NCBI GenBank assembly: GCA_009760855.2
Contig: WPIO01000005.1
Span: forward strand, 800,501-864,500
Direction: 5' to 3'
DNA from: Cristatella mucedo
Lineage: Eukaryota > Bryozoa > Phylactolaemata > Cristatellidae
Length of the DNA stretch: 64,000 nucleotides
Shown piece by piece: positions 3,753-62,215 of this stretch (positions are counted from its first letter, which is position 1; every line of letters starts with the position of its first letter). The notes beneath the pieces were generated by a model. It saw only the letters and a program-made list of their open reading frames with translations, searched no databases and was not told where the DNA came from. Position numbers and translations under genes: made by a program.

Positions 3753-3764
3753 CTCTGATACTTT

Positions 3765-11897: not shown

Positions 11898-14800
11898 CAC
11901 AAGCTTGTGTGCTTGCCTGGTTTGCTGCTTATAGCTAGGATAACAACTGTTGCCATGCGCTGCTTGTGAGGTATTTTATAATTAGGTTTAGCATGCTGCT
12001 GTGTCCCACTTATCATAATGGTACCACACCATAATTGTATATGCTGCAAAACATGTGCCTTTGTCTGCTTGACTGGATGGGCACTTTTGAGTCCTGGTGC
12101 TGTTCAGGCTGCCTGGAACAGATCAATCAGGTCTCAGTATTATGCTCATCTTACTGCTGGCTAGGTTCGTTCAGCTTGTGTTGCATTAGATGTTAGTTAG
12201 CCTTTCACCCATCCTAGTTCATCGGCTGTGTGGGCGTTCCTCACGTTTGCCATAGCTTCTGTCTATACTCAGCAAGCTTGTTTGGCTCAATGACCTGCAA
12301 GGATTAGATACCGTGAGTGGAAGTTTCTATCACACTAATGCAGTGGTTTGTATGCATTATGAGGTTGCCTTGTTCATGTGTTGATTATTATTTTTGTCTT
12401 TTTCCCAAATCACTACCTAGAACAGGTGGTGCAGGGTTAACTAAAGATTATTTCACCCCTGAGAGGGTTCATTCTCAAAGCCTGCAGGATGCTACTAGAA
12501 AGCTAGTAGGTATGAATACGATTAGGCATAAACTAGATTAACAAGGTATGTTAGCTCAGAGCCAAAATTAAAGTCACGCCTGTTAGTTCTTTGTAAAGTG
12601 GCTCATTGGGAATGGGCTAGAGTGCGAGCAAACTGGCTCCATGAATAATGAAATTGAATGGGGCAATGAAAGCAAATTTGTCATTTTCAGTAGCTGGTAG
12701 AGTATGTTCTACATCCATCGTTACTCTAATAAAGGTTTAAATGATAACTACCTTCCGAAGGCAGGGATTTCGACATTTGGATGCTATGGACCCATGTTCT
12801 GTGGTTGCTTCTAGAGCAGATACCTAGCATCAAAACACGGGATCTTTATTGAGAACTAGTTTTACAGAGCGTTTCAGTACCTATTATCTTAGTGGAGATA
12901 ATTTTTTTTCTTACATGCCAGTTAGCCTAAGCTCATCGCTAAGGGTGTTCAATATTTTCTCTGCTTAGCTGTTGAATTTAGTTTTAGGCCATTGCATTAA
13001 CCGAGTGGCCCTAGTCAGTCTCCTGGTTTGAATCCTGTTGAGTGTGTTTAAGTGGATAGAAAGCTCCGTGCCCAGGTAGGTCATATCAATCATCTAAAGA
13101 ATTGCTTACTAAAGTTTGGGAAACTTGTGGAGTTCAATAAGGCTGAATGGTTTCAAATGCTTTGTTCGCCCTATGCCAGAGAGGCTCCTGACAGGTGATT
13201 GTTTATCCCGTTATTTATTGTACGTTTATTTAGCACTACAAGTGAATATACTCGTACTGAAACATTGCTTGCATGTTAATGCCTAAGCTTACTTTAGATA
13301 CTGTGCATCATTGCAGAAAATGTTTACGTTTTTTATATCAGAATTGGGGCTGTTTAGGGTACCGTGGCCATTGTAGACGGCCTGGATGTTTTTGTGCTCT
13401 AGGGTATGTGCATTCACTTGGTGTTAGTGCAACTATTGAGTATATTTGCATGCTGACCCTGTGCATGTCACCCCTAACCATGTTATTCATTTTGTTTGTT
13501 TATCAAGCAGGATATTAGTCACCATTCAAATGCATTTCCCTTTGCAGCAAATGTAAAGCGCCTAGAGAGAGATTGAGTTCTTTGGGGGCGCTTTATCAAG
13601 TGCATTATTATTATATTTGCTCATGTGGATATAGTTGGCATGTAGAATTTTTCTGTAGTAATCTCTTGCTTGGTCTGTGTGTCTGCTAATGGTCTATGCG
13701 CATGTGCTTGCACTCGCTTTGTAGATCATATACTCTATTGCTTTGATCTGCCATGAGAGTCAAATATTGCACTAAGCTTACTCTTTGTATGCCTTATTAG
13801 TATGACTTTTCGAATCTGGCTGCAGCTGTTGCAGATCCTGGAGCCAAGCCAGGGGTTCATTTTCGTTTATCGGTTTGCACACTCATGTTGTCAAACTGTC
13901 TAATAGTTAAAGGATTGCCATATCTTTACTGGCTTCCCGAGCCTTGGTAATTTGGGTTTAGTTACTATTGCTGCTCACTAGTATTTGACTCCATATCTTA
14001 TTCTGTAAGCACCTCTAAAATACTTAGCTTGTTGTCATTGAGCACCAGCAGGAAATTGACTGGACTAATTTGACCACATGTTGCCCTTGCTGTTTTGCTA
14101 TGAGTTTAACAGCTACTGTCAGCCAAAACAATAATCTGATGGGTTATTTCATAGACTTGTTAGTTGGGGTATACCTTGCCTTTAACCGAAATGTACACAT
14201 CAGCTAGCTAGTTATAATTCTTGATTTCGAGAGTTTAGGCATGCACCATTTTTTGTTAAGCTTGGGTGCTTAGGATTGGCCTCTACCTCTGGAAGCTAAC
14301 TAGGTAGAATTAATACTGAAATTTGTATGAAGCCCTAAGAGAACAATCTTGTTCTAGCCACTTTATGTGTGCTAGAAAAGAAGCATATCAATTGGCAAAT
14401 AATATCATATCATTTTCTTTCTCATTTTGCGACTTCGCTGTTTGCTATTCGAACGTTTAAGCTATGTGTTCGTACACTTGTGTGCATGTTATGCTGTGCG
14501 GTGCTTTCTTATTGGAGCATTTTGTACTTGAAGCTCGGCTCGATTATGATCAATCCAGTCACTTTCTTCCTCATACCATAGCTGGTATTTGCTGCGATCT
14601 TTTGCATCTGTTCATGGGCAGCTGCTTGCTTTGACATTTATATCGCTCAAGTCAAGCTGTTTTATACCAGCAGCTGTATTTAAAAAAAGGATCTCTGTCA
14701 GTATTAATCGCAATGCCTTGATTGAACCTCATGTTAATTAATGTTAAGAGGTTGCACTTGCGTGTGGTATATAGAACCTACTAGTTGACAACTATCTTTC

Positions 14801-14903
14801 TACATTATAGTCTCAAATGCCTGATCCAAAGACCTATCGTCAGCATTTTGAAAATAAGCACCCTAAAACACCACTGCCAGCTGAACTGGAAGGTGTCAGG
14901 TAG
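11471..14903 (+). CDS. ZNF706: ZNF706-like small C2H2 zinc-finger protein
   Basis: Two coding exons: 11471-11608 (46 codons) and 14811-14903 (30 codons plus stop). Together they give 76 residues, the same length as the human protein. The N-terminus MARGKQKLQAQAKN is the 4F5/SERF-like basic segment of the family. The finger is C42-x2-C45 with H58-x4-H63, and MPDPKTYRQHFENKHPKTPLP is almost the vertebrate sequence. The intron splits the finger after the second cysteine. The donor is AAG/GTTGGT and the acceptor TACATTATAG. A strong acceptor TTTTCTTTAG ending at 11453 precedes the ATG, so the 5' UTR is spliced. Human ZNF706 is a small nuclear protein reported to repress self-renewal genes; the function here is inferred by homology. 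The last codons GTCAG/GTAGGC could also serve as a donor. Confidence 0.93.
11822..11896. repeat. (TG)n microsatellite
   Basis: About 37 uninterrupted TG units inside the ZNF706-like intron, some 210 bp after the donor. Confidence 0.97.
13436..13612 (+). mobile_element. LINE 3' UTR fragment with intact hairpin
   Basis: GCATGCTGACCCTGTGCATG and ACCATGTTATTC words are followed by the terminal hairpin AAAGCGCC (13555-13562) paired with GGCGCTTT (13587-13594), then an ATTATTATTAT tail. It lies in the ZNF706-like intron in sense orientation. The rest of the intron (11900-13435 and 13613-14810) shows nothing recognisable. Confidence 0.85.
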
Positions 14904-15584
14904 GCCATCAGTGCAGCTGTTTGTTACTGTGACATAATTCGATATAACGTGCTAACCATTCTATATAATGTATTTACTAGATAGTTATACTTATTTGTTG
15001 GACTGTACTCTTCACGGCCATCCTGCAGATGTAAAATTCTATGCTCTGGCAGACTGTTTGTCAGGGTGCAAGGCTGATGCTATTTTCCGAAAATGCTGCT
15101 ATGGCAGCATACCTCGTTCATTGATGAACGACTATGTAAGAATCGCTTGCTTGGCAGCCGTAGCTCAGTTTGTTCTAAGGGCAACAGTTTGTATTGGGCA
15201 GCCTTGCTTTGAAACTACACGGATAAAAAATTGAGCATGGCAGATCCCTCCTTATCTCTAGTTCTAGAAGGGAGGTCTGGCATGTAAGATGTGACAGTGA
15301 GTCCTGTAGCTTTCCATTGAGCATCTGTCATTGTAATTATTGCCAACATGTGTTTAGTGCTGTAGACACGTCCTTTCTTCCCCTCTCCAGATAGGAGGAC
15401 TGGGACCACAACACTTTCAAATATAGTCATCAAAATCTTATAAATGGTTACCAGATGGCAATGTAGATGCCATCTCAACCAAGACATGTTCTAAAAGAAA
15501 ACCGTTAGCTGCTGTAAGGTCCTTGATGTTGTTATATGTTAAGAAAAATATATAATTAGTTTGTTTAGTGTCCTAAGAGAACTT
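14904..15584. other. 3' flank of the ZNF706-like gene
   Basis: Probable 3' UTR and intergenic sequence. No polyadenylation signal of canonical form was identified with confidence, and no gene was seen. Confidence 0.3.
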
Positions 15585-15765
15585 GATAATAATAATATCA
15601 TACGTTTGATATTTATATAGCACCCTCAGAAAAATCAATCTATTTCTAGGCACTTAGCATTTAATTTAATCTCTATCCTGGTGCTTTGCATGTTTTTCAT
15701 AGCTCGAACCTTCGGCCTTGGATGTTTAAGGCAAACACCTTATCCCTCAGCCAAGATATGGTAAA
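15585..15765 (-). mobile_element. LINE tail joined to a tRNA-derived SINE (family 3)
   Basis: The left part (AATAATAATA, TATAGCACC, ATCAATCT) is a decayed LINE/SINE tail. The right part read on the minus strand has an A-box-like TTGGCTGAGGGATAAGG and a B-box-like GGTTCGAGC, with GCCTTAAAC between them, resembling a Leu/Ser-type tRNA. The head matches 60620-60690. Confidence 0.6.
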
Positions 15766-15789
15766 TATGTGCAAGAATCGACGTCAACT

Positions 15790-17140
15790 CCTACGTTTAG
15801 ATATGGCTGAAATGAGATGCTTGTTTTGCCTAATCTTTCGGCAACTTTTGGTACTATCGATAACCAAGTCCTTCTTGAGCACCTTTTATCTCTCCTAGGC
15901 ATCACTAGCACTGCATTGCAACGGCTCAGTTCCTATCTCAGTCGGAGACTCCAGAGTATTGATTTGAATGGGAAAAGACCATCCGAGGACCCACTGAAGT
16001 ATGGGGTACCTCAAGGCTCCGTGCTGGGTCCCATTTTTTCTGGGTTAATTTTCTTTCTCTCCCTCTTGTCGGTGTGATTGACAGCTACAACCTAGGCTTT
16101 CACAACTATGCAGATGACACTCGGGTATAGCTTTGCTTTAATCTATCCCGGCCCTCCGGCACGTCCTAGTCTCTCAATTTCCTTTCTGCGTATATTGCTG
16201 ACATCCTCACATCGTTGTCAGCAAACTATCTTAAATTCAAGGATAAAACCAACTCTCCAGTTATGGGCGAACCAAGTGTGATTCGAAAATTGGAAAGGTC
16301 AATGCTTGCAATCGGTTCTGCCAGCGTATGTCCTGTTGAATCTGCACGAAATCTATGTGTCCTGTCCTATTCCAAAATGATTTTTCATTAGATGACCACA
16401 TCAGCTCTACGGTGAAGTCTGCGTACTTTCAGTTATATAACATCGCTAAAATTCCTGCTAGCTTAGGCTGGGATACTAAATCTAAATTGGTCCATGCAGT
16501 TGCCACATCCGGTCTCGACTTATGTAACTCACTACTTGCTGGCCTACCGACCTGTTCTATCATGCACTTACTGCTGGTGCAAAACTCGCCAGCTAGGCTT
16601 GTCTGTCGTGAGCATCAGAGTTGCCACATCACACCATTTCATTTCTACCTGCACCGGCTCCCAGTCAAGCATCGACTTCCAGGTTCTGTCACTCGCTTGT
16701 AGGTCTCTTCAATATTTGGCTACACCCTACCAATCGGATCTACTCCATCAACAGGCTGACCGTCGTGCCACTTGCTTTTCTGAATCTGATTATCTATCGA
16801 TACTTCATACGAACCTCAAATCCTTTGGAGGCTGTGCTTTAGTTCATATTCTTCCATAGTCGGGAACTCACTTCGATTGGCAAGACGACTCACTCTGAAT
16901 TGACATTTAAAAAGAAGCTAAAACCCATATTTATCATAGCATTTATTAGGTCTGAGATTTGTCCTTTGTGTGTTTTTGCTTGTGGAGACTGCATACTGCC
17001 ACAAACCATATTTGCATGCCGGCCCTGTGCATGTAACCCCTAAACATGTTAATCGTACTATCTTTGCACCAAATGTTAAGAGCCTAGAAAGAGATCGAGG
17101 TCTCTGATGGCTCTATATCAAATGTATTATTGTTATTATT
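15790..17140 (+). mobile_element. degenerate CR1/L2-like LINE, reverse transcriptase to tail
   Basis: Reverse transcriptase blocks in order: DNQVLLEHLLSLLGI, LSSYLSRRLQSIDLNG, YGVPQGSVLGP and YADDTRV, then the C-terminal domain with LVCREH. The 3' tail hairpin is AGAGCC (17079-17084) paired with GGCTCT (17109-17114), followed by ATTATTGTTATTATTAT. Stops and frameshifts occur throughout. Confidence 0.88.
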
Positions 17141-18129
17141 ATCCTTTGCCATGATTGATGTGTGGCCTAGAACCCAGACCTTGCTTTGGGGCATCATCTG
17201 CTTGATGCTCTGGAAGATGATGCCTTTGACACATTGTAGCTGTTGATGGCCGTATTCAGTCGGCGAATGAAGAGAAGCTGCCATCGGAGCAGCCGTTGGA
17301 TCCTGCTACCAACTGCCGTGTGAATACAGGCCTTGCTGAAGCTTTGCTTTTGTATTATGTATTTCATCGAGAGGTACCAAGGATTGTGGGATACTTTTTT
17401 ATTGCAAATACTTACATTTGCTTGTAAAGCTGCAATGCAAAAGCATATTAATCATTTGCATGGATGCAGCAATAAAAAAAAAGTGCTGAGTATCTAAACC
17501 AACTTATCTATTCACATGCTTTTGTCTCTGATATTCGAAACGTTGCAATGCACCATCAGCAGATTTACATACATTAACTGGTGGTATTCTGGTGGTTTTG
17601 TTGCTACAGACGACATGTCAAGATCATCATGGTATTTTATAATGCCTAATATATTAAAGAAACGACAAATTTAGTAGCACTATCTGGCCCCTTGGTGAAG
17701 AGTCGAAACTAAGAACTGGCAGTATCCTTAAGTAGTTTAATTGTAGATTGCTGGTAGTTGGTCCAGTCGCAGTGAGTGCTGTCAATATACTAGATCTTAA
17801 ATTTATTAAATGATACTTTTGTGCTTATGATATAATCAAGCGTTAAATTGTGTCTAAAGAGGATTTGATTCTTATCGAGGCACTTTATCCATACCAAGAA
17901 GTTGGTATCATATTAACTGATTGTCGAACATTAAGTGCACAGCTGTACAATACATTGCACAGAAAGACAATTCACATCGATGAAGCATTCAATGAGGAAT
18001 GTTTAGGTTATTTGTTTTGTTTTGAAGGCGAAGACAAAAGATACTATATCAGCAAACCAACTGGCTAGAGGTGCATATAATCTGTTATGTTAGTTATGCA
18101 GAAGAGCCAAGTTATAACAAAATAATGTG
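17141..18129. other. no gene recognised; one weak open frame
   Basis: An open stretch at 17853-18068 on the plus strand reads like plausible protein (SKEDLILIEALYPYQEVG, then DEAFNEECLGYLF) but has no ATG and no known motif. It may be an exon of an unknown gene or a relic. The acceptor and donor are not convincing. Confidence 0.2.
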
Positions 18130-18275
18130 ATTAAATATAATTCATTTATATAGCGCCCCAAGAGAACTTAATCTCTATTCAGGTGCTTCACATATGCCTC
18201 GGGGCTTGAGCCCACGACCTCAGTCAGACCTTGGTCTGGGCGAGCACCTTTACCGCTAGTTCAAACCAGCTCGAC
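18130..18275 (-). mobile_element. tRNA-derived SINE, family 1
   Basis: Almost identical to the copy at 303-455: the AATTCATTTATATAGCGCC tail is on the left, with the tRNA-like head and GGGCTTGAGCCC on the right. Confidence 0.8.
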
Positions 18276-18989: not shown

Positions 18990-19115
18990 AAAATTGATGC
19001 AATTCATTTGCATAGTGTCCAAAAGGAGCCTAATCTCTACTCATGTGCTTCACATATGCAGAAGGGTTCGAGTCCATGCCACGGTCGTCAAATGTGAGCG
19101 CCTTACCCCAGCCGA
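18990..19115 (-). mobile_element. degenerate tRNA-derived SINE, family 1
   Basis: AATTCATTTGCATAGTGTCC, CTAATCTCTACTC and GGGTTCGAGTCC can be aligned to the family, with many substitutions. Another short tail-like piece lies near 18885-18935. Confidence 0.5.
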
Positions 19116-19254
19116 GCCAGGCTGGCATAAAAATTCTTTTCAATAGCGCCATGAGACCCAAATCTATATCTAACTGGTGCTTTACAGCTGGCTGTGCTTA
19201 AAGAGATAACCGGGAGTCAATGAGAAGCCAGTTGCCATGCCTAAACAAGCATGC

Positions 19255-24190: not shown

Positions 24191-24191
24191 G

Positions 24192-26355: not shown

Positions 26356-26359
26356 GTCA

Positions 26360-26470
26360 GGGGAATGCTTTTAATGACCGAGGTCATAGGCTCAAGCGCT
26401 GCGGCATATATGAAGCCCGTGAATAGAGATTACGTTCTCTTACGAAGCTATACAAATGAATTATATTATG
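26360..26470 (+). mobile_element. degenerate tRNA-derived SINE, family 1
   Basis: GACCGAGGTCATAGGCTCAA, CCGTGAATAGAGATTACG and CTATACAAATGAATTATATT align with the family head, hairpin and tail. Confidence 0.55.
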
Positions 26471-26630: not shown

Positions 26631-26910
26631 TGTATAACAGTGGCTCTGGGGGCGGCAGCTCTTGTGGGAGTCTCACGTAGACACAGCGGGCTAACGTGAG
26701 CAGGTAAACGAGACTCTCCTTTATTACTCTCAACGCGTACATATTTGAGAGCTCAATCAATCGCAGGAGAGGACACGAAATATAGCATGCATTCTTGGCC
26801 TGACGCTTTGCTGCATCAGGGGCCTAGCTATTAGTCACAAGTGAGGCATGTACATTAGTGTAAGAGCTCTTCGCTAATTACAACACCAGAAGCCGCAGGC
26901 TCACACAACA
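26631..26910 (-). mobile_element. solo LTR inserted in the LINE tail
   Basis: A 280-bp unit, TGTATAACAG to CACACAACA, is flanked on both sides by ATAGTGT (26624-26630 and 26911-26917). Removing it rejoins the LINE tail exactly (TACATAGTGTCCTCGGAG, as in other copies). On the minus strand it starts TGTTGTG, contains AGTAATAAAGG as a polyadenylation signal and ends TTATACA. No internal region is present, so it is a solo LTR. Confidence 0.85.
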
Positions 26911-28449
26911 ATAGTGTCCTCGGAGAACTTAATCTCTTTATGGGTACTTGATATATATAGGAATCCTAACCGTCCGGTTAGTAGTAACATGCACGGTATT
27001 AACATGCATAAGATGGTTAGTGGTAACATGCAAAGTATTAGCTCGAAGAGAGAGGCACACAAAGGATATCGCAAAAGGACCCAGTAAATTCTATGATAAC
27101 ACGGTGCGTCTTTAGTTTCTTTGTAAATGTTGTCAAGCCTCGGGATGTCGTATCGTCAGCCGGGATTAAGTGACAGGCTTTAGGAGAGCACCAACTAAAG
27201 GTGCAGCCTTCAAATGATTTAAGCCTATTTGGAGGTATGGCTGAATGATTGGATTCAAAAGAGCGGGCGGTACGATGCCTGGCCTGGTTGGGAAGTTGCT
27301 TGCATGATAAGGCTAGAGTAAGAGAATAAAGAGATCTTAAGTGAGTGATTAAAAATGTAAGTCAATATGCTGCTTGATTGGGAGCCAGTGCAGGTCAGTA
27401 AGAAGTCATTTGACGTGGCAACTGCCACGATCGCTTCAGACAAACCAAGCTGCCGAGTCTGGCACCAACTGTAAGCGCTCGATTACATGGACTGGTAGAG
27501 CTGCAAGCACTGACTTACAAGTCGAGAAGGGAAGTCACAAGTGCTGAAGCAACTTGCATCTGGTATTTGTTTCTATGCATGTCGATTTTTTTAAATGTTA
27601 CGTAACTGAAAGTAATCATACTAGAATGTGAAGTTCATACGATCTACTAATGAAAGATTTATTTGAATAGAACACCTAGATTTTGTGCCGATTCTACAGG
27701 AGATATGCTGGCAGAGCCAATTTTGAGCGCTAAGCTTTCCAGTTTCCACGTCGTAACAAATTTGCCGAAACTAGTGTGTTGGATTTTTAATCGTTCAAAT
27801 TGAGAAGGTTTGCTGCCATCCAAATGAGGATGGCAGCAATAGATGCAGCAACTTAGTTAGGAAAGTTTGAAGCTCTGGAGGGCTGGGAGAGATAAAAGCG
27901 TAAGCACTACTGTCGGTCATCGGTGTAGACTTTAAAGCCTGCATTTTGCTTAGTGATTACTTACATCGGCTAGAGTGAGAATAAAAATTGTAAAAGAAGC
28001 AGGCCATTCATATTGCCCTAAGGAGGTACCCGTATGTATTTTAGTGATTTCTAGCGTGACCTTTGTCCATGTACATCAATATTCTTGAGTCTCTCACTGA
28101 GATAGGAACTAAGTCGTTGCTGCAAAATTCTAGTTAGCTCGGGTTGGATGAGAAACACTCGAGAAGGACTTGGTGAACTGCAGTATTAAACCCAGCCGAA
28201 CGATAAATCAAAACAAGCAGAGACTTACTCAAGCTGCATTGCTGCGAAGGTCGTTCGCTATACTCCCAAAGCAGTGCTACTTCTGTGGAGTGATTACCTC
28301 TAAATAAAACTTGACTGAAACTTGTTTGTTAGGTTTGAAGTTTTATTTTAAGAGCTCCGTTAGTCCGCCGCAACTCATTCCAGTGTCTTTTATAAGTACG
28401 GCAGTTGGGAGACTGGCGGAAGTTGCCTAAACTTTAAATGAATAAATCA

Positions 28450-32202: not shown

Positions 32203-32208
32203 TTTATT
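32203..32208 (-). terminator. polyadenylation signal of the mucin-like gene
   Basis: AATAAA on the minus strand about 170 bases after the stop codon at 32375-32377. Confidence 0.5.
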
Positions 32209-32374: not shown

Positions 32375-33573
32375 TCACGCTGTGCCGCTTCTTCTCCGTA
32401 CGACGATGACGATACAGCACGACAATCCGGCAATAGCTGCAATAGCAGCCAGAACTCCGACAGTGATCCAGACGGGTAGCAGGTCTGCCACACTGACTTC
32501 GTCACTTTTCCCTGGCTTCCCGTCGCTTGAGCTCGTTTCTATTGCAGCAGCAGGCTTGCATATCGGGACTCCCAAGATATCAAAGCACTGATTTGTTTGG
32601 CAGGCATTCTGGGTGCGACAGGTGACTGTAAAACAGTAGGATAGGTCATTTGATAAATCACTTTAGAGAAGTCTTCATAATTTTGTGATTATCAAAGTAT
32701 ACATGTGACACAGGCATGTGTTTATTTTATAATAATAATAATACATTCTCAGTGAACCCACTCTCTTTCTACGAGCTTTATATTTCCTGTAAAGGAAGCA
32801 CTATCGAATGGTCAGTGGGAGCATGCTCTATAAACAACAAGACTCACATGGTTAGGGATGACATGCACAGGGTCAGCATGCAAGTATGGTTAGTGGCAGC
32901 ATGAACAGTGTCAGCACGCAAAAGCACATAAAGAACGAATCACAGGGACCCACTAAATGCTGTGATAAATTGGTCAAGTGCACGAACCTCAGATAAAGTT
33001 TCACTTAATGCTTGCTAGCATTCAGTTATTGCGGCGTAGCTCTTTTTATGAGATCTTTGGATTCTAGCTGAAATTGATATACTTTAAAAAAAAATTACAA
33101 AATTTTTAAAGACTGGCTAAGATTAACATGCCTGGGGTAAATTATTAGCCGGCCAAGAATTTTCCGTCTGAGTTTGCTTCGACATACGGCGAACATGGGA
33201 CACGGTGACACGGCGAATTATGCCTCTATTGGACAAGCAATGTCAAGTGGAATAAAGGCAAACATGACGAAAAAGACGAAGAATCATTTGACCGTCGGTC
33301 AACATTCGTGCTTACCTGGAATTTTAGTTAGGTTCGGCCAAGTGTATGTTGGCCACGAAATGTTGAAGACCATTTGGTTCTGAAGCACGCTGGGATGAAC
33401 TGTATTTGCTGTTATAAGAATGCTCCGCTGATGTAGTATCTTCGCTATATCCAAAGGCTGCTCGGCGTTATCACATGAGAGTCTGTAGGTCGCTTCGAGT
33501 ACGGGAGACGAGGCCACTAACGGCGCATTTGTGCTAGGTTTTAGCGCTAGTATCTTTATATCAATCACACCAG
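32375..33573 (-). CDS. juxtamembrane and transmembrane exons of the mucin-like gene
   Basis: Exon 33573-33316 encodes about 86 residues of an unrecognised extracellular segment with N-glycosylation sites NIS and NLT. The last exon 32625-32375 has a short Cys-rich piece (CRTQNACQTNQC), a Ser/Lys linker, one hydrophobic span (VWITVGVLAAIAAIAGL and CCIVIVV), the stop-transfer RRR and a tail of only about five further residues. This gives a type I membrane protein, provided a signal peptide lies upstream. Confidence 0.88.
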
Positions 33574-36500: not shown

Positions 36501-39500
36501 AATTCCTTGTTAATGCACTCGTCGTTATCTGAAATGCAGCAAACTATCATTGCTAGCACCAGCAAAAGTGCAGAGTTAACTCACATGGTGGCAAGCACCA
36601 AGCTTCACTAGTCCTACGTCAAAACACCAAGCTCTAAGCCAAACTCTGTGAGGCCAGCATAAGCAGTTTTGTGTTCAGCCCAAAACCACAGAATACATAC
36701 AGTTCAAACCTACCGAAGCACTCGGCAGATATCTCGGTCTTGATGTTTTCTGCCAAGTTGACCGTTGTGTTCGGACAGGCAGCACAGCTGTATGACCGCC
36801 ATTGGTCATCGCTTGCCAGGCACTTCGTATATGGGCAGGGCGTACTTGAGCAGACATCCTCTCGCACTGCGCAGCTGTCCCCTAGAGAGATATTGAAATA
36901 ACTTGCAGACAACGGAACAATCGTAACAAGCAGTATTTCTTCCCGTCATTAAGCGCTACTAGCATTTCTTGTCCGCCACAGAATTCCCTTAAGAGAATCA
37001 AAGTTCTTGCGTAAATTGAATACTGAGACCGATACAGGAACGACCTGTTTAACACGTATTTGTTTATCGTTTGTCAGTAGAGCCTAAGAAATTACGTGCC
37101 TAAGGACATTTAAATGCCTGTCTCTTGAATCGCATATCCCGTCGCCGTGCGCCAGCGCTCCCGGCAAACCATCGGCGTGCGCTTCCACACCAAAGCAGTC
37201 TGTGGCTTCAGCTTCGCCGACTTTCAGCGACCTACCTAGTAGGTACAATCGTGCGAGCCTATTACCATCTCGCTATCGGAGTTAAAACGCGCTTCTGGCT
37301 GCGTTTGCTACTGCCAGGATTTGTGAATGGGGTATTTCGCATAGGAAATCTACCCTTGGCCAGTGCTCGGCGCCAGAGACTGAGCTTGCTCGGTACTCAA
37401 ATGTAAAGTGCCTAGAAAGAGATTGAGTTCTCTGAGGGCACTTTATCAAGTGCACTATTATTATTATTATTATTACTCCTATCGTTGTCTTGAGCCGCTC
37501 TGTACGATCTCACTCAAGCTGTGAATCCCTCTAACTTTGTGATCATCAGGTCTGCCATAATCCTAGCAGTCCACCTCGAGTTTTGCCTTTGGAACCCTCT
37601 TTAAATTAGAAATAAACACCTAATAATACATAAGATGATTATTGACAACTATCTTGACCGGTTTGCTTTCACCGAAACCTGGTTGAATTCAACTAGCAGC
37701 CCGACCATATAACCTAAGCCATCCCGACGGGCTTTATTATCTTTCGTATGCCGTAGATCTATTAAAACGGGTGGGATTCGCCATCGTACGCTCCTCCTTC
37801 GATTTCAAACCTCTTGCTGTCCCCTCACAGCTTTCTTTCGAATCCCTTGTTTTGACTGTTAAAAAAAGAACTTGCCCACGGTAGCAGTATTCTGTCGTCC
37901 CCCAGGTGGCACCAAGTCTTGCTTTTATCTAATCTGTCGGATCTTAACCGGGTCTGAGCTCAAGAAATCCTCTCTTCTTCGCTGTGGGTGAATTGACCAT
38001 TCATTTTGACTACTCCACTGACATCCTAATTGCCGAATTTCACAAACTGACGGACGCATTGTCTCTTTTGGCTTCTGTATTCATGACCCAACTTACAACA
38101 AGGGTTACACGATTGACTTAATATTCTCCCACAACTGCCTGCTCTCGTCCCCTATGATAACCAAATATTTTGCTCATCTGACCACATTCGGATCTCATTT
38201 AGTCTTCAGTTTGTGTCTTCCTCCACATTCAGATACATCTGTAAATCACGAAACCTTCAGACACTTGAAATTTTATGCTACTCCCAAGAATATATCTTCT
38301 TCGCCCCTGATGCTTAATCTACCGACCAATAGGTCGAAAATGGTAGAAAGCTACAACAAGACATTATCTGAAATTCTTAGCGGGTCTGCACTTCTGACTA
38401 AGCGAACTGTGAGACCTCATCCAGACGGTCGATTTTTCATCATAGGCATTAAACTATCTCGATCTACTAAGGTTAAGATTGAGAAAGCATACAACGATCA
38501 GGACTGACTGTTCGTTGACAGGCATACGAGGACTTCTGCAGATCATACCAATATATCCTAGCAAAGACCAAGTCTAGCTTCTATTAAAAATATTTATTTC
38601 TGAATCACATATGCACGATCCAAAAAATCTTAAGTCTAATATCGAACATCTCCTTGACCGCGGCAAGGTTAGCGCCTTCCTTAGTAATCATTGTGGGGAT
38701 TTAGCCGAGTGCTTCAATATCGGCAAGATAGACAAGGTAAAAAAATATTGATTATTCCTAAGGTAACAGCATCCCCGCTGGACTAAGGTCTCTCAGTCAT
38801 AGCCTCACACGACTCCTCTCCCATAGCTCCATCCAGCACCGAAACGTCTGCATTCAACGTGGCACCTTAAAATATGTATTCAAGGCAGCCGTGTATGACC
38901 TCATCCTGAAATTAATCTACAGGTCAAAGAAGTCTACTAGCTCTCAAGACCATATGAATACTGTCCTACTTTTAGGATGCATAGATCTGTTGCTGCCATG
39001 CGCTGCTAACATAAAATAATGTCCTTGGCCGCGAGTTTTGTTCCTGAACCTTTCCAAAAGGCTGTTGTTAGGCCATTAATTGTGGAAGCAACACTAGACC
39101 AAGAGAACTTGAGCAACTTTTAATATGCCCTCGGACGAACTTAGTCACGATGAGACTGCAAATAAGCTGTCCTGGAAAGTGCTTCGCAATATGGATGAGC
39201 CCGACACAGTCGTTACGGTGGAAAACATGCAGAAAGATATATAACTTTAATAACCAATGTAGGTTTATTGGCTATGCATGCATACCCCTTGTACTGCCGT
39301 TGGTGTGCTCTATGTACCCCCTCTCTGAAATATTTGTGGGCAGATGGTTGAGAGCATAGGAAAGCACCTCATAGTGTCATCAGCTGTTTGCTACTTCATA
39401 AAAATCCCCATGCTTATAATCTTTATTGGCCATATTAACAATGTCGATCGTCAATTTCTATCTAGTGGTTGTAGCAACTTTTATGGAACGATAGTTTTTT

Positions 39501-41663: not shown

Positions 41664-41694
<31 letters not shown>

Positions 41695-44600
41695 TTTGTC
41701 ATGAACCCTCTAAGAAATTAATCTGTTTCTATGCACTTTACATATCCTGCAAACGAAGCATAATCAAATGGTTAGTGTTGGCATGCAAAATGTCAACAAG
41801 ATTAGAGGTGACAGGTACAGAGTCAGCATGTCAAATACTGTTAGTAGAAGCATGCACTGTGTCAGCAAGCACAACACACAAAATATGAATCATTATTACC
41901 CACTAAATGATGTGATGATGTGATAAATTATGTAAGCAGCTGCGTTCGAGGTTATTTTTAAACGTCTTCGGGTATGGGTATCGTGACATCAGTCGAGAGT
42001 GAGTTCTAGGCTTTGGGAGCATATGAACTACGGGCACGGTCTTCAAAGGAATTTGTGATGCGTAGGAGATATATCTAAAATATTTGAGACAGAAAAGCGG
42101 GTGGTACGAAGCTTAATGAGCGAATAGATCTGATAGGTAGGCTGGAACCAGAGAATAAAGGGATCTAAAAGTGAGTGATTAAACCCTGAAGTCTACTTGA
42201 TTGAGAGTCGATGCAGGTCTTCGAGAAATGGTGTGATATGGCAACTGCAACGCTCAAGACATAAAAGCGTAGCTGCATATTTTTGCACCAACAGTAACTG
42301 ATTGCAATGGCCGGTGGACCAGCAAGCAGTTAGTTACAGAAGGAGAGACAAGGCGTCACAAATGCACGGACCAACTTCGATGCAGCCTCCCTGCCTGAGC
42401 AAGTCCGAATTTAAGCAATGGGACGCAGCTACAAATAGGCAGACATGACTTCGGAGCTACTGTGGGCGTCTAGTGCTAGGTTTCTTGGAAACAGGATACC
42501 TAGATTTCGTGCAGATGCAACTAAAGATATATTGGCAGAGCCGATTTTTGAGTGTTAGCCTTTCCAATTTCTGAATCACACTTGACTTGCCCACAACTAG
42601 TACGATAGTTTTATCTTCATTCAATTTGTGAAAGTTTGGTGCCATCCATGGGCATATATCAGCATTACATGCAGCAAGGGAATCGAGAGAACTCAACGTG
42701 CCTCAGTGAATCGAGGCATAAAAGAAGAGGTACAACTGAGGGTCAATTGCATAGAATTTAAATCCTAGATTGCGCTTGCCGATCACGTCGATAAGAGAAC
42801 TAATATAAACTGTGAAATATAGCGGACCAAGCACAGACGCCTGAGGCACCCCGTACTTCAGTTGTTCCTCGGATGATCTTTGCCCGTTCAAATCTATACT
42901 TTAGAGTCTCCCACTGAGATAGGACCAGTACATTGAAACACAATGCCATCGAGCCCAGGTAAAATGAGAGGGGCTCGAGAAGGCTGATCAATCGTATCAA
43001 CGCTGCTAATAGATCAAGAAAATCAAGTAGGCAAGCTTTGCCTAGGTCTGTATTATAAACTTACTCCCGACTTTCGTCACGACATCCCCAGACTTAAACA
43101 CATTTAAAAAGAAATTGAAAACGCACCTATTTATGACAACATTTAGTGGATCCCTGTGATTCGTCCTGTGTGTGCTTATGCATGCTGACACTGTTGCATG
43201 CTGCCAGTACCACACTTGCATGCTGACCCTGTGCATGTCACCACTAACCATGTTATTCATGTTGTTTATCAAGAACGATACCACTCACAATTCAATCGTG
43301 TTTCTTCTGCACCAAGTGTAAAGCACCTCGAAAGAGATTGAGTTCTCTGTGGTGCTTTATCAAGTGTATTATTATTATTATTATTTATGAGCAGGGTGTT
43401 ATAAATCCGAAGCAATGCTGAATCCGTGGAGTGATTAGCTTTTGAAACAGATTGAAACTTCCTTGTTTGGTGTGAAATTTAAATTTAAAATTCAACTGGT
43501 TGGCCGAAGCTGGTTCTAGTGTCTTTTATACTAACGTTATAAGTGAGACTGGGCGATGGTTTCTCAAGTTCTCTGGGTCAGGTATTGCTTTCTTAATTAG
43601 GGGCCTACTGCAGGCTCATTGAAAGGTGCTGGGAAATTTCCAGATGCTAATGACATATTTGTAATGTTAGTTATGCATGGTGGCAGCAGATCTATGCACT
43701 GTACAAGTAGACAGTGGGAAGAGGGTCTAGACGGCCTGTAATCTTATTTGACAGGAGATGAATTTCAGGATTGAGGTTTAGCTGTTAGCTTAAGCGGTCT
43801 TTGCGTCTCAATAGAAACGTTAATCTGTACTCAAAAACAACGGGGCGCTCGAGACTATTTCTGATATGGCCTAAAAACGATTTCCATACGCACTTACCAA
43901 GAATGGCTAGAGAATCGCGTCGCTTCTTCGCCGCTCGGTATGTCGCATCTGCAATGGCCACACTTCCGGTTACTAGCTGGTCGTAGATGCAGGCTCGTTC
44001 ACCGGCACAGAAACTGGCCTCCATTGTTTTCTTCTCTGCTACGTCGCCGAGAAACGCAGGCACGAACGAACGATCTGTGTAGTCTCGATCACTTCTTCCT
44101 CCTCGGTACCACATAATGGATTCGCCGTCTTTCATTCGCCCTAAAGCGGAGTTACGAAGTCAATCTGGTACTGCTACCACAGTTGAGCTTCGTCGGTTTT
44201 CCCGAAGTGATTGATTGCAGTGAAAGTTCGACATCATTCTAGGGCCTTCGTCCGTGCACAACTTCTTGTATTTGACACTTTCGACGGAATAATACATGTA
44301 ATGCATTTTTGCTAGAGTGCTGCTCTATCTCCTCTTCCTTTCGGATTCAGATTAGACGCAACATATCGTTCGACTTCATGGAGTGATTGATTCTATTGGC
44401 ACAATTCGTGCCGCTTTAGTCGTAGGCATTAGTCCAAAGGAGACCTCGCTTTATTGTAATATCTTGTTCGATGCAGCCATCCGGATTCAAAATGTGGCCT
44501 TTCGTCTCTGATCGTATATTTATATAATCTGCTTTAAATCCAAATTACCGCCGGCGTCTTGAAGACGCAAGATACTATTTTCAAGTCATGCTGGAAAGTC

Positions 44601-53600: not shown

Positions 53601-56600
53601 CAATCCCGAGTGGAATAAGCGTGTATAAAAGTAACCTATAATAATTTTGTAAGCAAAACAGTTTTCTAGGGGACGGAATCCAAACAACGTGCATAGAATT
53701 ATTAAGACTCTATTCAAAGATCAAACCAAATTCGGCGGTGAATTCTTTTACTAATATTATTACGATGTAAACAGTCCCCTATTACCTGCATGTAATGCAG
53801 TTTGAGACCTCTAATCATGTATGTGTATCGTGGTGGCCAAGCGGCACGGCCCGTTCCTCTGCCGAAACTAGAGTAGGCGGGCCTGTAGAGTAGTCCCCTG
53901 GTGGCGCATCACTTCACCCACAGCGATTTACTGCCTGAGGAGAGGTCAACATTAACATTAATAATAATTTATATGCAGAGCGCCCTTAGAGAATTAAATA
54001 CATTTTAGGCACTTTACGCTCGCTTGCTGGATAGAAAGCATGTCCACTAGTTAGTGCTAGCAGCACGTAGGGAAGGCCAGTGAGATTGTTCTTCCATTCG
54101 TCTACAGATGAATTCTGAAAACTGCCAGTGTTAAATCAATATTGGAGTCTGTTAAAGCATAGTAAATATCACCGTGTCTTGAAAATTTACATTAGAAGCT
54201 AAATTAAATGCATCGCCTATAACCGGCGAACGACATCAGCCTTAAAACCCAGTCAGCATTCAGGACTATATGCTCCCGTACCCCACACATTATTGTACAT
54301 ACTTATAGCAAAATCACTTAAGAATAATAATAATAACACACTTAATAATGCGCCCTCTGAGAACTCAATCTCTTTCTAGGCGCTTTACATATGCTGCGAA
54401 GGAAGTATGATTGAGTGGCTAGCTGTAGCATGCTCAATAAAAATCAAGAATAACGTGGTTAGGAGTGACGTGCACAGAGTCAGCATGCAGGTGTGGTTAG
54501 TGGCAGCATACACAGTGTCAGCACGCATAAGCACATGAAGGACGAATCACAAGGACCCACTAAATGCTGCCATAAATAGGTGCGCTTTTAATTTCTTTTA
54601 AATGTTGTCAAGTCAGGGGGATGTCGTTGACGAAAGTTGTGGAGTGAGCTCCGACCTTAGGGAGCATACGAAAACAACAGAAAGGCACCGTCTCCAAAGG
54701 ATTTGCAGTTTGTATAAGGTGTAGGTAAACAGTTAGATTTCGAAAAGCGAGTGTTACGATGGGTAGCCTGGTAGGGCAGTTACTCGCTTCCACAATTCTT
54801 ATGCGACGACAACTACTCTCCTGCTGCTGACTATGGCTCATCCATTTCAGCGGTCCTGAGCTGCTACTTCCATGCTACTCACTACCTCAACTGTTCTCCT
54901 GACTCGGCTGTGCTTCCCATTTTCTCTTTGTTTCGTCAGGTGAAGTCTGTTGGCTACCGAATGCGTACCGAAAGTCGCTTAGTCTATGAGTGGGCTGCAC
55001 AAAACTCTCCTGTGTTGCACTCAAATAGTGTGTATGGCTTTGTGGAGTTCCCGACGGAGATACATTAAATGACATTACGTCTGATAGGTAGTAGGCTGGA
55101 GACAAAGAATGAAGGGACCTGAAAGTGAGAGACAGAACCTTGTAGTCGATGCCTTGCTTGACTGAGAGCCAGTACAGGTCAGCGAGAAGTGGTGCGATAT
55201 AGCAAATGCGATGCTCACGACAAACACGCCTAGCTGCAAAGTTTTGCACCAGCTGTAAGTGCCTGACTGAACAGGTCGGTGGACCAGCAAGCAGTGAGTT
55301 ACAGAAGTCGAGATGGGATGGCACAAATTTAAGGACCAACGTAAATGTGGTATCCCTGTCTAAACAATCCCGAATTTTAGCAATGTTATGTAACTGAAAG
55401 AAGGCAGACTTAATTGTGTAGCACTTATTGAGAAAATCGATTTCTCTCGACGATTTTAGAAAACAAGTCATACTTGTTTAAGCAAAGCAGTCATATGTTT
55501 CCAGTTTTCCTCGTATTGAGGTTAAAAATATCTGATTTTTCACTCTGACGTTAGTAGGTCGATGCTAGTTATCCGTGTCTACCCGGACACTTGATGGGCC
55601 TTAATACCGAAGTATTACAAAATCTGACGGAAATCTTCGATTAAAATAATTGATCCAGCGGTTACGGTGCTTGCCCCGAATGGTCTGGCTGAGGTCGTGG
55701 GCTCGAGCCCCGAGGCATATGTAAAGCGCCTGAATGGAGATTGAGTTCTCTTGCGGCGCTGTACAAATGGATTATATTTTTAAGGTTTGCCATCAATTTT
55801 AATTGCGAGCAAGCAAGTTCAGCACGCATATAGATAGTTCAACGGCATCGAGACAAAACCATATCATGTTTGCTCGAGATTTAGAGCAAAAATAATCTTA
55901 ATTCATAACTTTCATACACATTAATATTCACCAAAGCTTCAATAAATAATTGATACTTGAAGAAATATGTGGTAATCAGAATTCCTCAGTGGCTGGGCGT
56001 TCTCTGCCCTTTTTTTGATTTACTTTTGCTCTTTTACCGCACAACTGCATGAAAGCTTACACGATGCAATCAGTCAAGAGCAACAGGTCTCGCTATTTCT
56101 AAAGAAAAACTACCCGCCAGACCATTTTTCTAGGATATCGTATCAAAATGAGGCTAAGCTGGCAAGGCATTTGACTCTATTTTTGAGACCGTTAGTTTCA
56201 CTCCAGAGGCTATAAGACATGCCCTCCTCTATTTTCAGGTCTGCCATATTTATTCAGTTGACATGCTTATTGGCTTAATCCTCTTTAGTGTGTACAAATA
56301 ATCTCAATTAACTTCACCACTGTCATTACCGTAACATGCCTGACAATTGTTCAGCCTAAAGCTAAAAATTCTAGGTAGAGTTCACTCTCGAGCAAGACGA
56401 AGAGCAATTTTTAATTTTTAATACTAAATAGTTTCGCCCTCTAGATGTAGAGAAGCGTGCACGGAAATAAGTAATCATCAGTTGTCAAAGATGCCAAAAA
56501 CTGACTTTTTTTGGTTTGAAAATGAATATATAACCTATTGTATCTAAAATGAGTTCGACAGTAAAGTCTGCCATTAATAAGCCGTTTGATTTAAAGCTTT

Positions 56601-57571: not shown

Positions 57572-57894
57572 CTGAAAAACGTGCATTTGCGGATTGGTGT
57601 TTCTGTTAATACCCAGAATAGACTGAAAGCAGTCATGGGTCATTCGCCGGAGCCACATCGCACTGTTTTCAATTGCTATTTCTAGATTTGGAACCACGGT
57701 GTAGCCACTGGCTTACGTTTTTGCAGCATCATTTTCTGGGCAAATGGCAAGCAGCAAAAAAGAAAATCTCTTGAAGTATGACAACGAGGCTCTGATTCTC
57801 TTATGGCCGTCTAAGCGCAATTAACATATCTTTACAGGCATTGGCTGTGGTCCCTATTCCAAGATTGATAGCAACAATTAATATGTTGATATGT

Positions 57895-58972
57895 ATATAT
57901 GGCAATAAGAGAACACATCTCTGTCTACGCACTTTGAATTAGCCGCTAAGGACGGTGTCCTTTGGTTAGCGATATCTCGCACAGTATCAGCATGAATCAA
58001 CACACAAAGTACAAAGCACAACGACGCAGCAAATGCTGTGAGAAACAGGTGTGTCTTACCTTCTGTTTAAATTTTGTAATATCAAAGTGTGTGGAGACGT
58101 CAGTCGGGAGTGAGCTCCAGGCTTTGGGAGAATGCAGACTTACGTTACGGTCTCCAAAGGATTTGAGGTTGGTTAAGTGCACTGCTAAGCGACTTGAGTA
58201 GGAAGAGCGGGTACGATGCACTGGGAAGTGGTTTGGATAGCTAGGCCAGAGCCAGATAATGAAGGGACCTAAAAGTGAGTGACAGAACCTTGAAGTCGAT
58301 GCTGCTTGATAGGAACCCATTGAAGGTTGTTGAGACGCGGCGTAATGTGGAAATTGCACGAAGTTCAATACAGGCATGCCTGGCTAGGGAGTTGTGCACA
58401 AACTCTAACCCCCTTATGGCAAATGCAGAAAGACGTGCTTGTAGTGACTTACAAAAGTCAAGAAAGGATATCCAAAATGCCTTTAACATTTTGTATTTGG
58501 CATCCCTGTCTAAGCTGGCCCGGACTTACGTAATCTAACGCAGCTGAAAGTAGGCAGATTTGGCTATGGTGGTGGTTTGTTCGTGTAGTGAAAGGTCATT
58601 TTGGAACAAGACAAGCAGGTTGAGTGCAGATGCTAGAAGAGGCCGTGCCCACTTTGAGGGTTAAGTTTCCAATTTTTGAGTAACCCTATCTGTGCCGATA
58701 ACGAATAAATTAGTTTTATCATCATTCATTTTGAGAAAGTACAGAGCTATTTAATTTGAAATCTCGAAAGTACACACTTCAATGCGGATTATAAAGTTTG
58801 ATCTGCTGGAGGGCAAGAAGGGATAGAATAAAAAGTAAAAAGCTGTGTGTCGGCTGCATAAAAATGAGAGCCTGTGTGGTGTTTGGATAGATACTACATT
58901 GGCAAGAGAGGTGGTATAAATTCAATAAAACTAGACCAAGCACAGATCCAAGAGGCACATCGTATGCTGAAA
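57895..58972 (-). mobile_element. CR1/L2-like LINE 3' part
   Basis: Begins with a tail remnant (CAATAAGAGAACACATCTC) and runs through the 3' UTR and reverse transcriptase C-terminus (KFGDRNVSLHSPKAWSSL near 58100; LSLTFRSLHYLAL near 58270) into the core at 58980. It abuts a second LINE copy at 58975. Confidence 0.8.
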
Positions 58973-59336
58973 TCAACAGGACGAATCGCATTTACCCATT
59001 AAATGCTGTGATAACTAGATGCGTTGCAGCTTCTTTTCAAATTTCGGCAAGTCAGGCGAGGACCTAACTCCTGTCGGGAGTGTGGTCCGGGCTTTAGAAG
59101 CATTCGAACTAAAGACGCAATCTCTATCGAATTTGAGACTCTTACGAGATGCAGATAAACGGTTCGATTCAGAAAAGCGAGTGGTACCATGCTTAGCCCG
59201 GTGGGGGACTAGATGTGATAGCTATGTATATGAAAGTAGGCAGACTTGACTGTGGAGCTGATGTGGTCCTCTAATGAAAGGTCACTTTGGAACAGGACAC
59301 CTAGATTTCATGCAGATTCAACAGGAGATATTTAAT

Positions 59337-60035
59337 GTATCTCCGTCTGTAACTCCACAAAGCCATAAAGACCATGTGGGTGTTACGCAGGAGAGTTTTG
59401 TATAGCAAATTCATAGCCTAAGCGGCTTTCGGTACGCACTCGGTAGCCAACAGACTTCATCTCAAACAACAAAGAGAAAGTGAGAAGCATAGCAGAGTCA
59501 GGAGAGCAGTTGACGTACTGAGTAGCATGGAAGTAGCAGCTCAGGACCGCTGAAAAGGATAAGCCATAGTCGGCAGCAGGAGATCAAATGTCGTTGCGTA
59601 AGAATTGTGGAAGCGAGTTCCACAGTCTCGGACCTGCAGAGCTAAAGCTTCTGTCGCCAACGGTCTTTAAGCAGAAGAATGGAACAGCTAATTTATTGTC
59701 CATACAAGAACTGAGGTGGCTAAAACTGGTGCAGCCGTTCAGCTAGGTACAAAGGAGCCAAGCCGTGGTGGGCCGTGTGGGTCAGCGTAAGAACTTTGCT
59801 CTGTATCCGTTGCTCAACCGGCATCCATCCTAGCTCTTTTAGCAAAGGAGGCACGTGCTCAAACCTCTGGGATTTGAAGACTAGCCTCGCTCCCCGCGCT
59901 AGAGAGCGGCCTCGGGCGACTGCTAGCGTGGTGTGGACCTTTGCCTGATTTCTCCGCGATATCCGCGATTCTGGTATTCCGCTGCTCTCTTCACTGCGAC
60001 TATCTATGAGCGGATATCCTCGGATATGCTATACA
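59337..60035 (-). mobile_element. second LINE family, C-terminal region and tail
   Basis: Minus strand: ELGWMPVEQRIQSKVLTLTH and GLAPLYLAERLHQ are typical of the region after the reverse transcriptase. They are followed by CTGCTGCCGACTATGG and a 3' end TACATTAA at 59337. The flanks CAGGAGATAT and CAGATATGCTGGC belong to one continuous LINE. Confidence 0.78.
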
Positions 60036-60619
60036 AACAGCAGATATGCTGGCAGAGCCGATTGTAAGCGTTAACCTTTCCAATTTCTGAATCACACATG
60101 GTTTGCCCGTAACTATTATGTTGGTTTTATCCTCACTAAATTAGACAGTTTGCTGCCATCCATGTGCGAATGTCATCAATACATGCACTATAAGAGCTGA
60201 GAGAACTTGATGCGTGGGAAGGATCAGAGGGATCAAAGCAAAGATACAACTGAGTGTCGTCTGCATAGAAGTTAGAGCGAATGCTGCACCTGGCAATCAC
60301 ATCGGCAAGATGAAGAGTACAAAACGTGAAAAGAACCAGACCAAGCACAGAGCTTCGAGGTGCTCTATACTTCATCTGTTCCTCGGATGATCTTTGTCCG
60401 TTCGCGTCAATACTCAGAAAAAAACCTCCTATTGAGATAGGACATAGACCACGGCAGTACCGTGTCAGTGATACCCAGGTAAGTTGACAGGCAGTCAAGA
60501 AGGATTTTGCGGTCAATCATATCAAGCGCTACAGAAATATCCAGCTAAGCAAGCATCTCACTTCAGCCTTATCTAAACACCTAAGTAGACATCGATTCTT
60601 GCATGCATTTGTCCTAGCT

Positions 60620-60690
60620 TGGCCGAGTCAATAAGGTGCTTGCCTTAAACGACCAAGTTCGATTGTTCGAACCTTGCAGCCTAAGTAAAG
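60620..60690 (+). mobile_element. tRNA-derived SINE head, family 3
   Basis: A-box-like TTGGCCGAGTCAATAAGG, GCTTGCCTTAAACGACCAAG and B-box-like TGTTCGAACC resemble a Leu/Ser tRNA. It interrupts the LINE at 58975-61230. Confidence 0.6.
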
Positions 60691-61271
60691 TCCGAATGCC
60701 CAAAAATTTAATTGTACACTCTCAACGTTGCCGAATCCCTGGAGTTATTTGCTCTGGAATCTGACTTGAACCTTGTTGCTATCTTTGAAGTTTTTTTATA
60801 AGGGTTTAGCTGGTCTGCCTTATCTTATTCCAGGGTCGCGGTAAGAAGACATGGCGAAAGTTGCTTAAGTTCTCCTGGTCAAGCATTGCCGACTGTTTTA
60901 GTGACCTAATAACAGACATTTTTAAGAATGCAGGGAGAACACCTGAAGCTTTGGACATTTTTGTTTTTCATTTATCCATAGCATTAGCACATCTATGAAT
61001 CTCAGGAAGAGACAAGTGGGTATATGGTCCAGAGGGCTCTAATCTTCTTAGATTGGAAAAGTAACTTTGAGATAAGTTCATTAGCTGCCGGCTTGAAGGT
61101 GCACCGTGAGGTACAGCAACAAGCTGAGGGAGATTATCCAGTGGAGATGTTACTTCGGGAATGCACTCGCTGATCTTATTTATCTTGCCTAGAAAAAGCC
61201 AGAGAACAGTACGCTAGGTGCGAGATGAAGATGATTTTAGATGAAGTTTCATATCATCTTCATCTCACATA

Positions 61272-61440
61272 TTAGTGAGCCGTGATGGCACACTTGGTAA
61301 GGTGGTTTCTTTTCACGACCTCGATCCCGAGGTCGTGGGTTTGAATCCTACGGTGGGCAATCCTTTATTGCTGCTGCAAGCGGTGGTGGTAGCCGTAAAG
61401 GCCCCTCTGTCGCTATACAAAATAGGCTGTTAAATCAGCT
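61272..61440 (+). mobile_element. tRNA-derived SINE, family 2 (best copy)
   Basis: A-box TGGCACACTTGGTAAGG, anticodon-arm-like ACCTCGATCCCGAGGT, a perfect B-box GGTTTGAATCC near 61338, then GGGCAATCCTTTATTGC and the tail AAAGGCCCCTCTGTCGCTAT. The acceptor-like ends GCCGTGA and TACGGTG partly pair. Confidence 0.8.
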
Positions 61441-61447
61441 AGTTGAT

Positions 61448-61600
61448 TAATTTAAAAAGTCTGTTGGCTACTCATATGCGTACCAAAAGCCTCTTCGGCT
61501 TTGAGTGGGCTATGCAAAACTCTCCTCCTGCATAACAACCACGTGGTCTTTGTCTTTGTGGAGTTACAGACGCTGATACATTACATTGCATTACATTATA
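61448..61600 (+). mobile_element. second LINE family, 3' end
   Basis: AGTCTGTTGGCTACTCATAT to GATACATTACATTGCATTAC. Shows the repeated TACATTA-type tail most clearly. Confidence 0.75.
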
Positions 61601-61849
61601 TCACCCGCAAGGATCATTAAGTTAGATGCTGACCTGGGAGCGGTTAAGGAAATGATTGATGATTGGCATCGGGATTCTTGGAATGTGCATTGGGGACTCC
61701 GCTTCGTTTTTATTTGAAGCTAGACATGGATTCAGCCATGCTGGATTGGTTTGATCAACAATAGTTCTAGCATGCTAGTACATGGACAGTCAGTCCTGAT
61801 TTTTCGTATAATTTCTCAAGCTTGAGCTAAGCAGTCCTAGCTAGTACTA

Positions 61850-62215
61850 ATTTGGCCTCCAACCCACCCTAAATCCTGTGGAGACCGTGCCTTCAGTTCA
61901 TATGCTCCCAAAAAACTCACTCCCGACTAACGTGACGACATCCCCGACTTGACGACTATAAAAATAAAATAAAAACGCACTTTTTTCTCACAGTATTTGG
62001 TGGTCCTTGTGCTTTTTTTGTGTGCTTATTCGTACTGACACAATGCATGCTACCAATAACCATATTTACATGTTTATAATGGGCAAGTTACCTCTTACCA
62101 CATTATGCTTGTTGAAATTTGCATGTACTCGATCATGCTTCTTTTACAGCATATGTAAAGTGCCTAGAAAGACATTAAGTTCTCTGGGGATGCTATACAA
62201 ATGTAGTATTAATAT
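61850..62215 (+). mobile_element. CR1/L2-like LINE 3' end
   Basis: The last coding words and 3' UTR as at 43050-43388, then AAAGTGCCTAGAAAGAC with a partly broken partner GGATGCTAT, and an AT-rich tail. Confidence 0.8.

Follow-up and report, generated by a model that had tools for sequence, protein, structure and literature searches.

A LINE and a SINE share a 3' tail hairpin in a Cristatella mucedo contig, with stem covariation unsupported over all tails

We found that a long interspersed nuclear element (LINE) and a short interspersed nuclear element (SINE) carry the same 3' tail hairpin in a 64-kb stretch of the Cristatella mucedo contig WPIO01000005.1 (positions 800,501 to 864,500 of the forward strand; hereafter the window, numbered from its first letter). 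It is an ordinary LINE–SINE tail hairpin; covariation of its stem is unsupported over all tails and nominal in well-preserved LINE copies. The tail has an outer stem and, within its hairpin, an inner stem-loop, and it ends in a T/A-rich stretch, which is made of ATT repeats in the LINE; about 65 bases of the tail are common to LINE and SINE. We consider it probable that the shared hairpin had a docking role and that its stem variation is mostly decay after insertion. The sources would have been an L2/CR1-like LINE, a clade that we assume partly from its resemblance to known members, and a short SINE whose head resembles a tRNA, now present as old broken copies. While the elements were active, the LINE reverse transcriptase most likely docked at the tail, and the SINE would have borrowed the LINE tail and so the LINE copying enzyme. 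Most differences between stems would then reflect the decay of copies already inserted, with the two CpGs that face each other in the GCGC stem changing quickest.

That the two elements form a pair with a common 3' hairpin had been proposed in a first-pass annotation of this DNA, and was supported by the alignment, by folding and by a SINE head limited to SINE copies. Tail sharing and folding were both observed directly. The claimed hairpin is real and lies where the annotation had placed it in four named copies, in which all eight stem arms were verified. In these copies, the inner AGAGA-type stem and the ATT repeats were present, and the two-stem hairpin folded with z values from -3.28 to -4.91 (first four lines below).

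13555 to 13594, + strand: LINE 3' hairpin (tail 13548), stem AAAGCGCC/GGCGCTTT, CpGs intact; fold z -4.31
37405 to 37444, + strand: tail-only copy (tail 37398), stem AAAGTGCC/GGCACTTT, both CpGs changed, matched, no LINE 3' untranslated region (UTR) upstream; fold z -4.91
43320 to 43358, + strand: LINE 3' hairpin (tail 43313), stem AAAGCACC/GGTGCTTT, both CpGs changed, matched; fold z -4.80
17079 to 17114, + strand: LINE 3' hairpin (tail 17070), stem AGAGCC/GGCTCT, C-G changed to A-T by a two-sided transversion; fold z -3.28
54347 to 54386, - strand: LINE 3' hairpin, GCGCC/GGCGC intact, a single mismatch in each of the outer and inner stems; fold z -3.54
659 to 698, - strand: LINE 3' hairpin, GTGCC/GGTGC, two G-U wobbles; fold z -1.08
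62157 to 62196, + strand: LINE 3' hairpin, GTGCC/GATGC, two wobbles and one broken pair; fold z -1.99
41682 to 41746, - strand: degraded LINE tail in which the hairpin fold fails; folding z +1.00, covariance-model search
32729 to 32786, - strand: LINE tail, right arm broken; covariance-model search, alignment
26905 to 26958, - strand: degraded LINE tail; nhmmer, folding, covariance-model search
57868 to 57942, - strand: degraded LINE tail; nhmmer, covariance-model search

Ten LINE copies carried the 3' UTR and the tail, and in well-preserved copies the 3' stem-loop was followed by short tandem repeats. The statement of the annotation that most LINE copies end in the hairpin can be gauged roughly at best: these ten were found by their tails, several of them are too decayed to form the hairpin (e.g., tail 41746), and the LINE at 3749 to 4820 is without it. 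Folding covered 16 of the 21 aligned tails; z was below -2 in eight and ranged from -1.99 to +1.00 in the remaining ones. The inner hairpin was the least diverged part in the ten LINE copies, with 18 of 159 cells changed vs 37 of 169 in the spacers (P 0.012) and 293 of 1634 in the non-CpG UTR (P 0.037); as the LINE copies were detected via their tails, the conservation figures are biased upward. Outside CpG, the outer stem diverged like the UTR (22/120 vs the same 293/1634, P 0.90). The right arm ended in CTTTAT in the young LINE tails 37398, 13548 and 43313 and mostly in CTATA in the older LINE tails 17070, 705 and 62150 and the SINE copies; one change between these ends converts an A.A mismatch to an A-U pair.

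Three SINE copies (310 to 445, 18132 to 18266 and 55650 to 55782) begin with the same head, which contains an A box and a motif resembling a B box; the tail follows from GCATATG onward. The SINE copies and tails are the following.

310 to 445, - strand: SINE, A box TGGTCTAGCGG, B-box-like motif GGGCTCGAGCC, tail GCGCC/GGCGC; fold z -4.25
18132 to 18266, - strand: SINE copy, stem GCACC/GGCGC, change on one side; fold z -2.97
55650 to 55782, + strand: SINE copy, stem GCGCC/GGCGC; fold z -3.94
26405 to 26469, + strand: degraded SINE tail; nhmmer, covariance-model search
18993 to 19058, - strand: degraded SINE tail, CA on both arms, broken; covariance-model search, alignment
15586 to 15663, - strand: tail-only copy within the hairpin of another SINE copy; covariance-model search

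In the window, the 70-base SINE head matched these three SINE copies only. The 3' tail of the SINE is homologous to that of a LINE in this genome: the LINE-tail nhmmer query reached the SINE copies at 375 (E 9.5e-7) and 55716 (E 2.5e-5), and the SINE consensus core was identical to LINE tail 62150 at 40 of 49 positions (39 and 38 for the next two LINE tails). The annotation had given the SINE the same terminal structure; the hairpin was indeed present, but the SINE 3' ends resembled ATT repeats only loosely. The A box TGGTCTAGCGG agrees with what we take to be the consensus. The B-box-like motif GGGCTCGAGCC deviates from GWTCRANNC, exact matches to which were absent from the SINE strand of the heads and numbered 29 in the window vs 28.5 by chance. 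No tRNA was found by ARAGORN, nor by Rfam in the two SINE stretches searched; therefore, the tRNA origin of the head rests on the boxes. At 15530 to 15780 (- strand), a SINE copy is interrupted in its hairpin by the tail-only insertion listed above.

The hairpin could instead be a DNA palindrome, or have persisted by chance, with no RNA signal. DNA palindromes are prone to deletion, and the LINE at 3749 to 4820 is without the hairpin region, both of which would suit this reading. We nevertheless consider it highly improbable, as the same tail occurs on elements of two types whose upstream parts are unrelated, the least diverged part is the inner stem-loop, and an RNA role of the tail is known in L2 LINEs (excerpts of PMC4176376).

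A docking role would agree with what is described for L2 LINEs. In the excerpts of PMC4176376, the tail stem-loop of zebrafish L2 LINEs is bound by their open reading frame 2 (ORF2) protein, retrotransposition is lost when the stem is broken, one stem can replace another and the loop must be cognate; from these L2-clade experiments, it may fairly be inferred that the hairpin described here is recognised by the LINE reverse transcriptase. The same excerpts report that changes in the stem sequence also lower the activity of UnaL2; therefore, the fold alone may not suffice. The likeness to ZfL2-1, ZfL2-2 and UnaL2 lies in a stem-loop at the 3' terminus with short repeats after it; the zebrafish LINEs require a cognate loop, and here the inner stem-loop is the least diverged part. 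It is a likeness of features, not letter by letter, and in contrast to those elements no intact protein is present in the window. In the excerpts of a review (PMC3747384), UnaSINE1/UnaL2, HAmo SINE/HAmoL2 and SINE2-8_SP/L2-1_SP likewise combine a tRNA-type head with a LINE tail, as likened by description and not by sequence; the elements in the window add one more LINE–SINE pair with a common hairpin. Literature text searches with the tail letters matched no transposon paper, as judged by titles and the first part of abstracts.

Covariation was assessed in tails collected from the window. The LINE-tail nhmmer query returned 26 rows up to E 10, of which 21 formed the alignment; the reverse-strand self-matches 13595 and 37445 and the rows 56898, 17850 and 56785 were dropped. 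A covariance-model search gave 24 matches, i.e., the 21 aligned tails and three weak ones, and its weakest matches (19127, 48690 and 56898) were not taken into the set. By hand, row T18928 was realigned and the interrupted SINE tail S15700 was added, giving 22 tails (11 labelled LINE, six SINE and five of uncertain origin); copy 37398, which has no UTR, was grouped with the LINE on its tail alone. The arm-shuffle count of doubly changed cells used 21 tails, and the tree-aware, placement, wobble, central-pair and simulation tests used 22. Exact-pattern scans for the tail in viral contigs and genome contigs gave 0 matches; therefore, every test rests on the 64-kb window.

According to the annotation, the two sides of the stem covary from copy to copy. 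Across the whole set of tails, paired changes occurred at chance frequency, and its four examples proved to be favourable ones. In the 21 tails, 77.3% of cells were paired vs 76.2 ± 0.9 after arm shuffling (69 of 500 shuffles as high or higher), and six paired cells were doubly changed vs 4.6 ± 1.9 (158 of 500 shuffles reached six); sliding the partner positions yielded 5 to 11 doubly changed pairing cells. With phylogeny taken into account, our own imitation of R-scape (tree built on 49 columns, 200 null alignments) detected no significant pair among the 22 tails: of the 13 pairs, the best had an E of 0.55, and the P of the summed score was 0.145. At the central CpG pairs, a double variant that matched fully was present in 3 of the 22 tails, compared with a mean of 3.36 expected (P 0.71). 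Upon random placement of each copy's changes, doubly changed paired cells averaged 7.8, 13.8 and 19.1 (CpG weights 1, 3 and 5) vs the six observed. One-sided stem transitions kept a wobble in 20 cases and broke the pair in 19; the corresponding counts were 27 to 42 outside the stem (the stem being slightly higher, not significantly, P 0.23) and 90 to 92 in the UTR.

The GCGCC/GGCGC stem has one CpG per arm, the two facing each other, and given equal odds of C-to-T and G-to-A decay, chance alone makes half of all two-arm transitions match fully. The TG/CA stem of tail 37398 and the CA/TG stem of 43313 are matched two-arm transitions. TG stands on both arms in tails 705, 62150 and 15663, with two G-U wobbles each, and CA on both arms in tails 50721, 19058 and 15700, with two broken pairs each. 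That is, two of the eight tails with a transition on each arm were fully matched vs half expected (one-sided P 0.14). CpG positions of the outer stem were changed in 36 of 88 cells (27 transitions) vs 35 of 220 at its other positions, with the A.A pair excluded (Fisher 9e-6); the same contrast in the ten LINE copies alone was 18/40 vs 17/100 (P 0.001). Seven LINE stretches had an observed-to-expected CpG ratio of 0.49–0.76, compared with 1.01 and 1.09 for two gene open reading frames (ORFs) and 0.84 for the whole window; the ratio also varied outside the LINEs (0.42–1.05 over 4-kb bins). A caution follows for stems of this kind: with facing CpGs in a GCGC stem, decay on two arms is expected to mimic compensation in about half of such cases, and tail covariation should therefore be tested with CpG sites masked.

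Several results weigh against decay after insertion as the account of these tails, and most of them bear on an alternative that we hold as a tentative possibility, in which LINE source lineages switched stems by compensatory changes selected for the fold and decay in dead copies masks them. The stem GAGCC/GGCTC (17079/17109) is a double transversion and not CpG decay. The four copies of the annotation hold three matched doubles vs 0.33, 0.69 and 1.18 simulated (P 0.003, 0.031 and 0.098 at CpG weights 1, 3 and 5). Surviving pairs numbered 217, compared with 196–200 under random placement (P 0.0025 or less). In simulations, the share of paired cells was 0.787 with compensatory internal branches and 0.62 without pairing, and the observed share of 0.759 is closer to the former. 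LINE–SINE spacer differences account in part for these pairing figures. In ten well-preserved tails, wobble-keeping transitions outnumbered breaking ones by 9 to 2 (P 0.033, the copies not being independent). In the five LINE copies ranked youngest by UTR divergence, 9 of 10 central pairs were in Watson-Crick form vs 5.6 after shuffling (P 0.033; 0.10 with G-U counted), and the outer-stem P was 0.017; the top five by nhmmer similarity had 10 of 10 central pairs (P 0.017, the lowest value of any five-copy set). In the 11 LINE copies, the central pairs gave a P of 0.033 (0.070 with G-U) and the full set of 13 pairs one of 0.013 (0.050). In addition, CpG transitions in the UTR were not significantly in excess (12 of 61 cells vs 80 of 670 at other C/G, P 0.10) when recounted by plain majority, a looser rule having favoured CpG, and this slightly weakens the docking-and-decay account. 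As regards the LINE itself, its RVT_1 match reached 17.7 bits vs a cut-off of 29.6 (E 0.0031) in a piece read across a frame change.

Compensatory switching is further favoured by the lower divergence of the inner hairpin than of the spacers or the non-CpG UTR in the ten LINE copies, and by the compensatory stem changes reported for plant L1-clade LINE/SINE tails in the excerpts of the review (PMC3747384). The plant report makes the same kind of stem claim, so that the general claim is not new; it differs by clade, and compensation here was not significant over the full set. Nominal arm matching was confined to well-preserved LINE copies: for the central pairs, it was null in the six SINE copies (P 0.67), in the 12 lower-ranked tails (P 0.69) and in all 22 tails (P 0.27), and none of the six SINE copies held a fully matched double variant. 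Arm matching in young LINEs would fit source elements whose stems stayed paired, with decay setting in later in dead copies, which is possible but unproven. Against such switching stand the negative full-set and tree-aware tests, the absence of arm matching in the inner stem in all seven sets (P 0.18 or more) and the UTR-like divergence of the outer stem outside CpG. Compensatory simulation also expected 34–71 doubly changed cells (5–95%) vs the six observed, although the unpaired simulation, with a mean of 10.5, exceeded six as well, indicating that the simulation rates were too high. The supporting arm-shuffle P values come from seven small sets, with four groups of pairs and two rules of pairing, and are uncorrected. 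Young sets formed on tail similarity are in part selected by the stem itself; the five copies ranked by UTR divergence are the sole young set free of this.

The annotation had read the paired changes as a sign of selection on the fold. On the full data, this proposition runs into the refuting conditions that the annotation itself had set, without being wholly refuted. The tree-aware test was null, and two of the three variants fit CpG decay; the double transversion at 17079/17109, which does not, stands for it together with the four-copy and young-LINE signals. We consider it unlikely that, in successive LINE lineages, both arms of the outer stem changed in step (GCGCC/GGCGC, GTGCC/GGCAC, GCACC/GGTGC and GAGCC/GGCTC), with the facing CpGs giving the first mutation and selection on the fold fixing the second. 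If this were true, CpG decay would drive stem turnover rather than mimic compensation.

Three longer LINE stretches are listed below.

3749 to 4820, + strand: LINE copy without the hairpin at its 3' end; end 4820 placed by eye
15704 to 17142, + strand: broken LINE with YGVPQGSVLGP and YADD, UTR and tail; motifs by eye, RVT_1 E 0.0031, below the Pfam cut-off
57965 to 60670, - strand: broken LINE with YADDTQLYL; motif by eye, ORF 60136 to 60516 without a Pfam match

We take YGVPQGSVLGP and YADD to be reverse transcriptase motifs. All LINE proteins of the family are broken in the window. The first part of the piece that matched RVT_1 gave an E of 0.098 alone; the other LINE protein pieces had no RVT_1 match in Pfam, and the two pieces searched against PDB had no match. 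In the LINE at 3749 to 4820, the UTR passes into AATAAAATGAATTATTA; the hairpin is missing and the tail end is present, with its last bases closer by eye to the SINE tail than to the young LINE tails. The tail-only copy at 37398 to 37477 (+ strand) begins at the hairpin, continues into ATT repeats and has no UTR upstream; it is possibly an extreme 5' truncation.

Elsewhere in the window, two long uninterrupted ORFs with an observed-to-expected CpG ratio of about 1 encode a Trypsin_2 domain (2000 to 3214, + strand) and a DFP domain (9470 to 10603, - strand); they are presumably TYSND1-like and phosphopantothenoylcysteine-synthetase-like, respectively. The broken LINE copies and these two ORFs suggest that the window is eukaryotic by content. 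A 200-base unit occurs in two copies, at 5353 to 5552 and 7013 to 7212 (+ strand), with a spacing of 1,660 bases and 86% identity.

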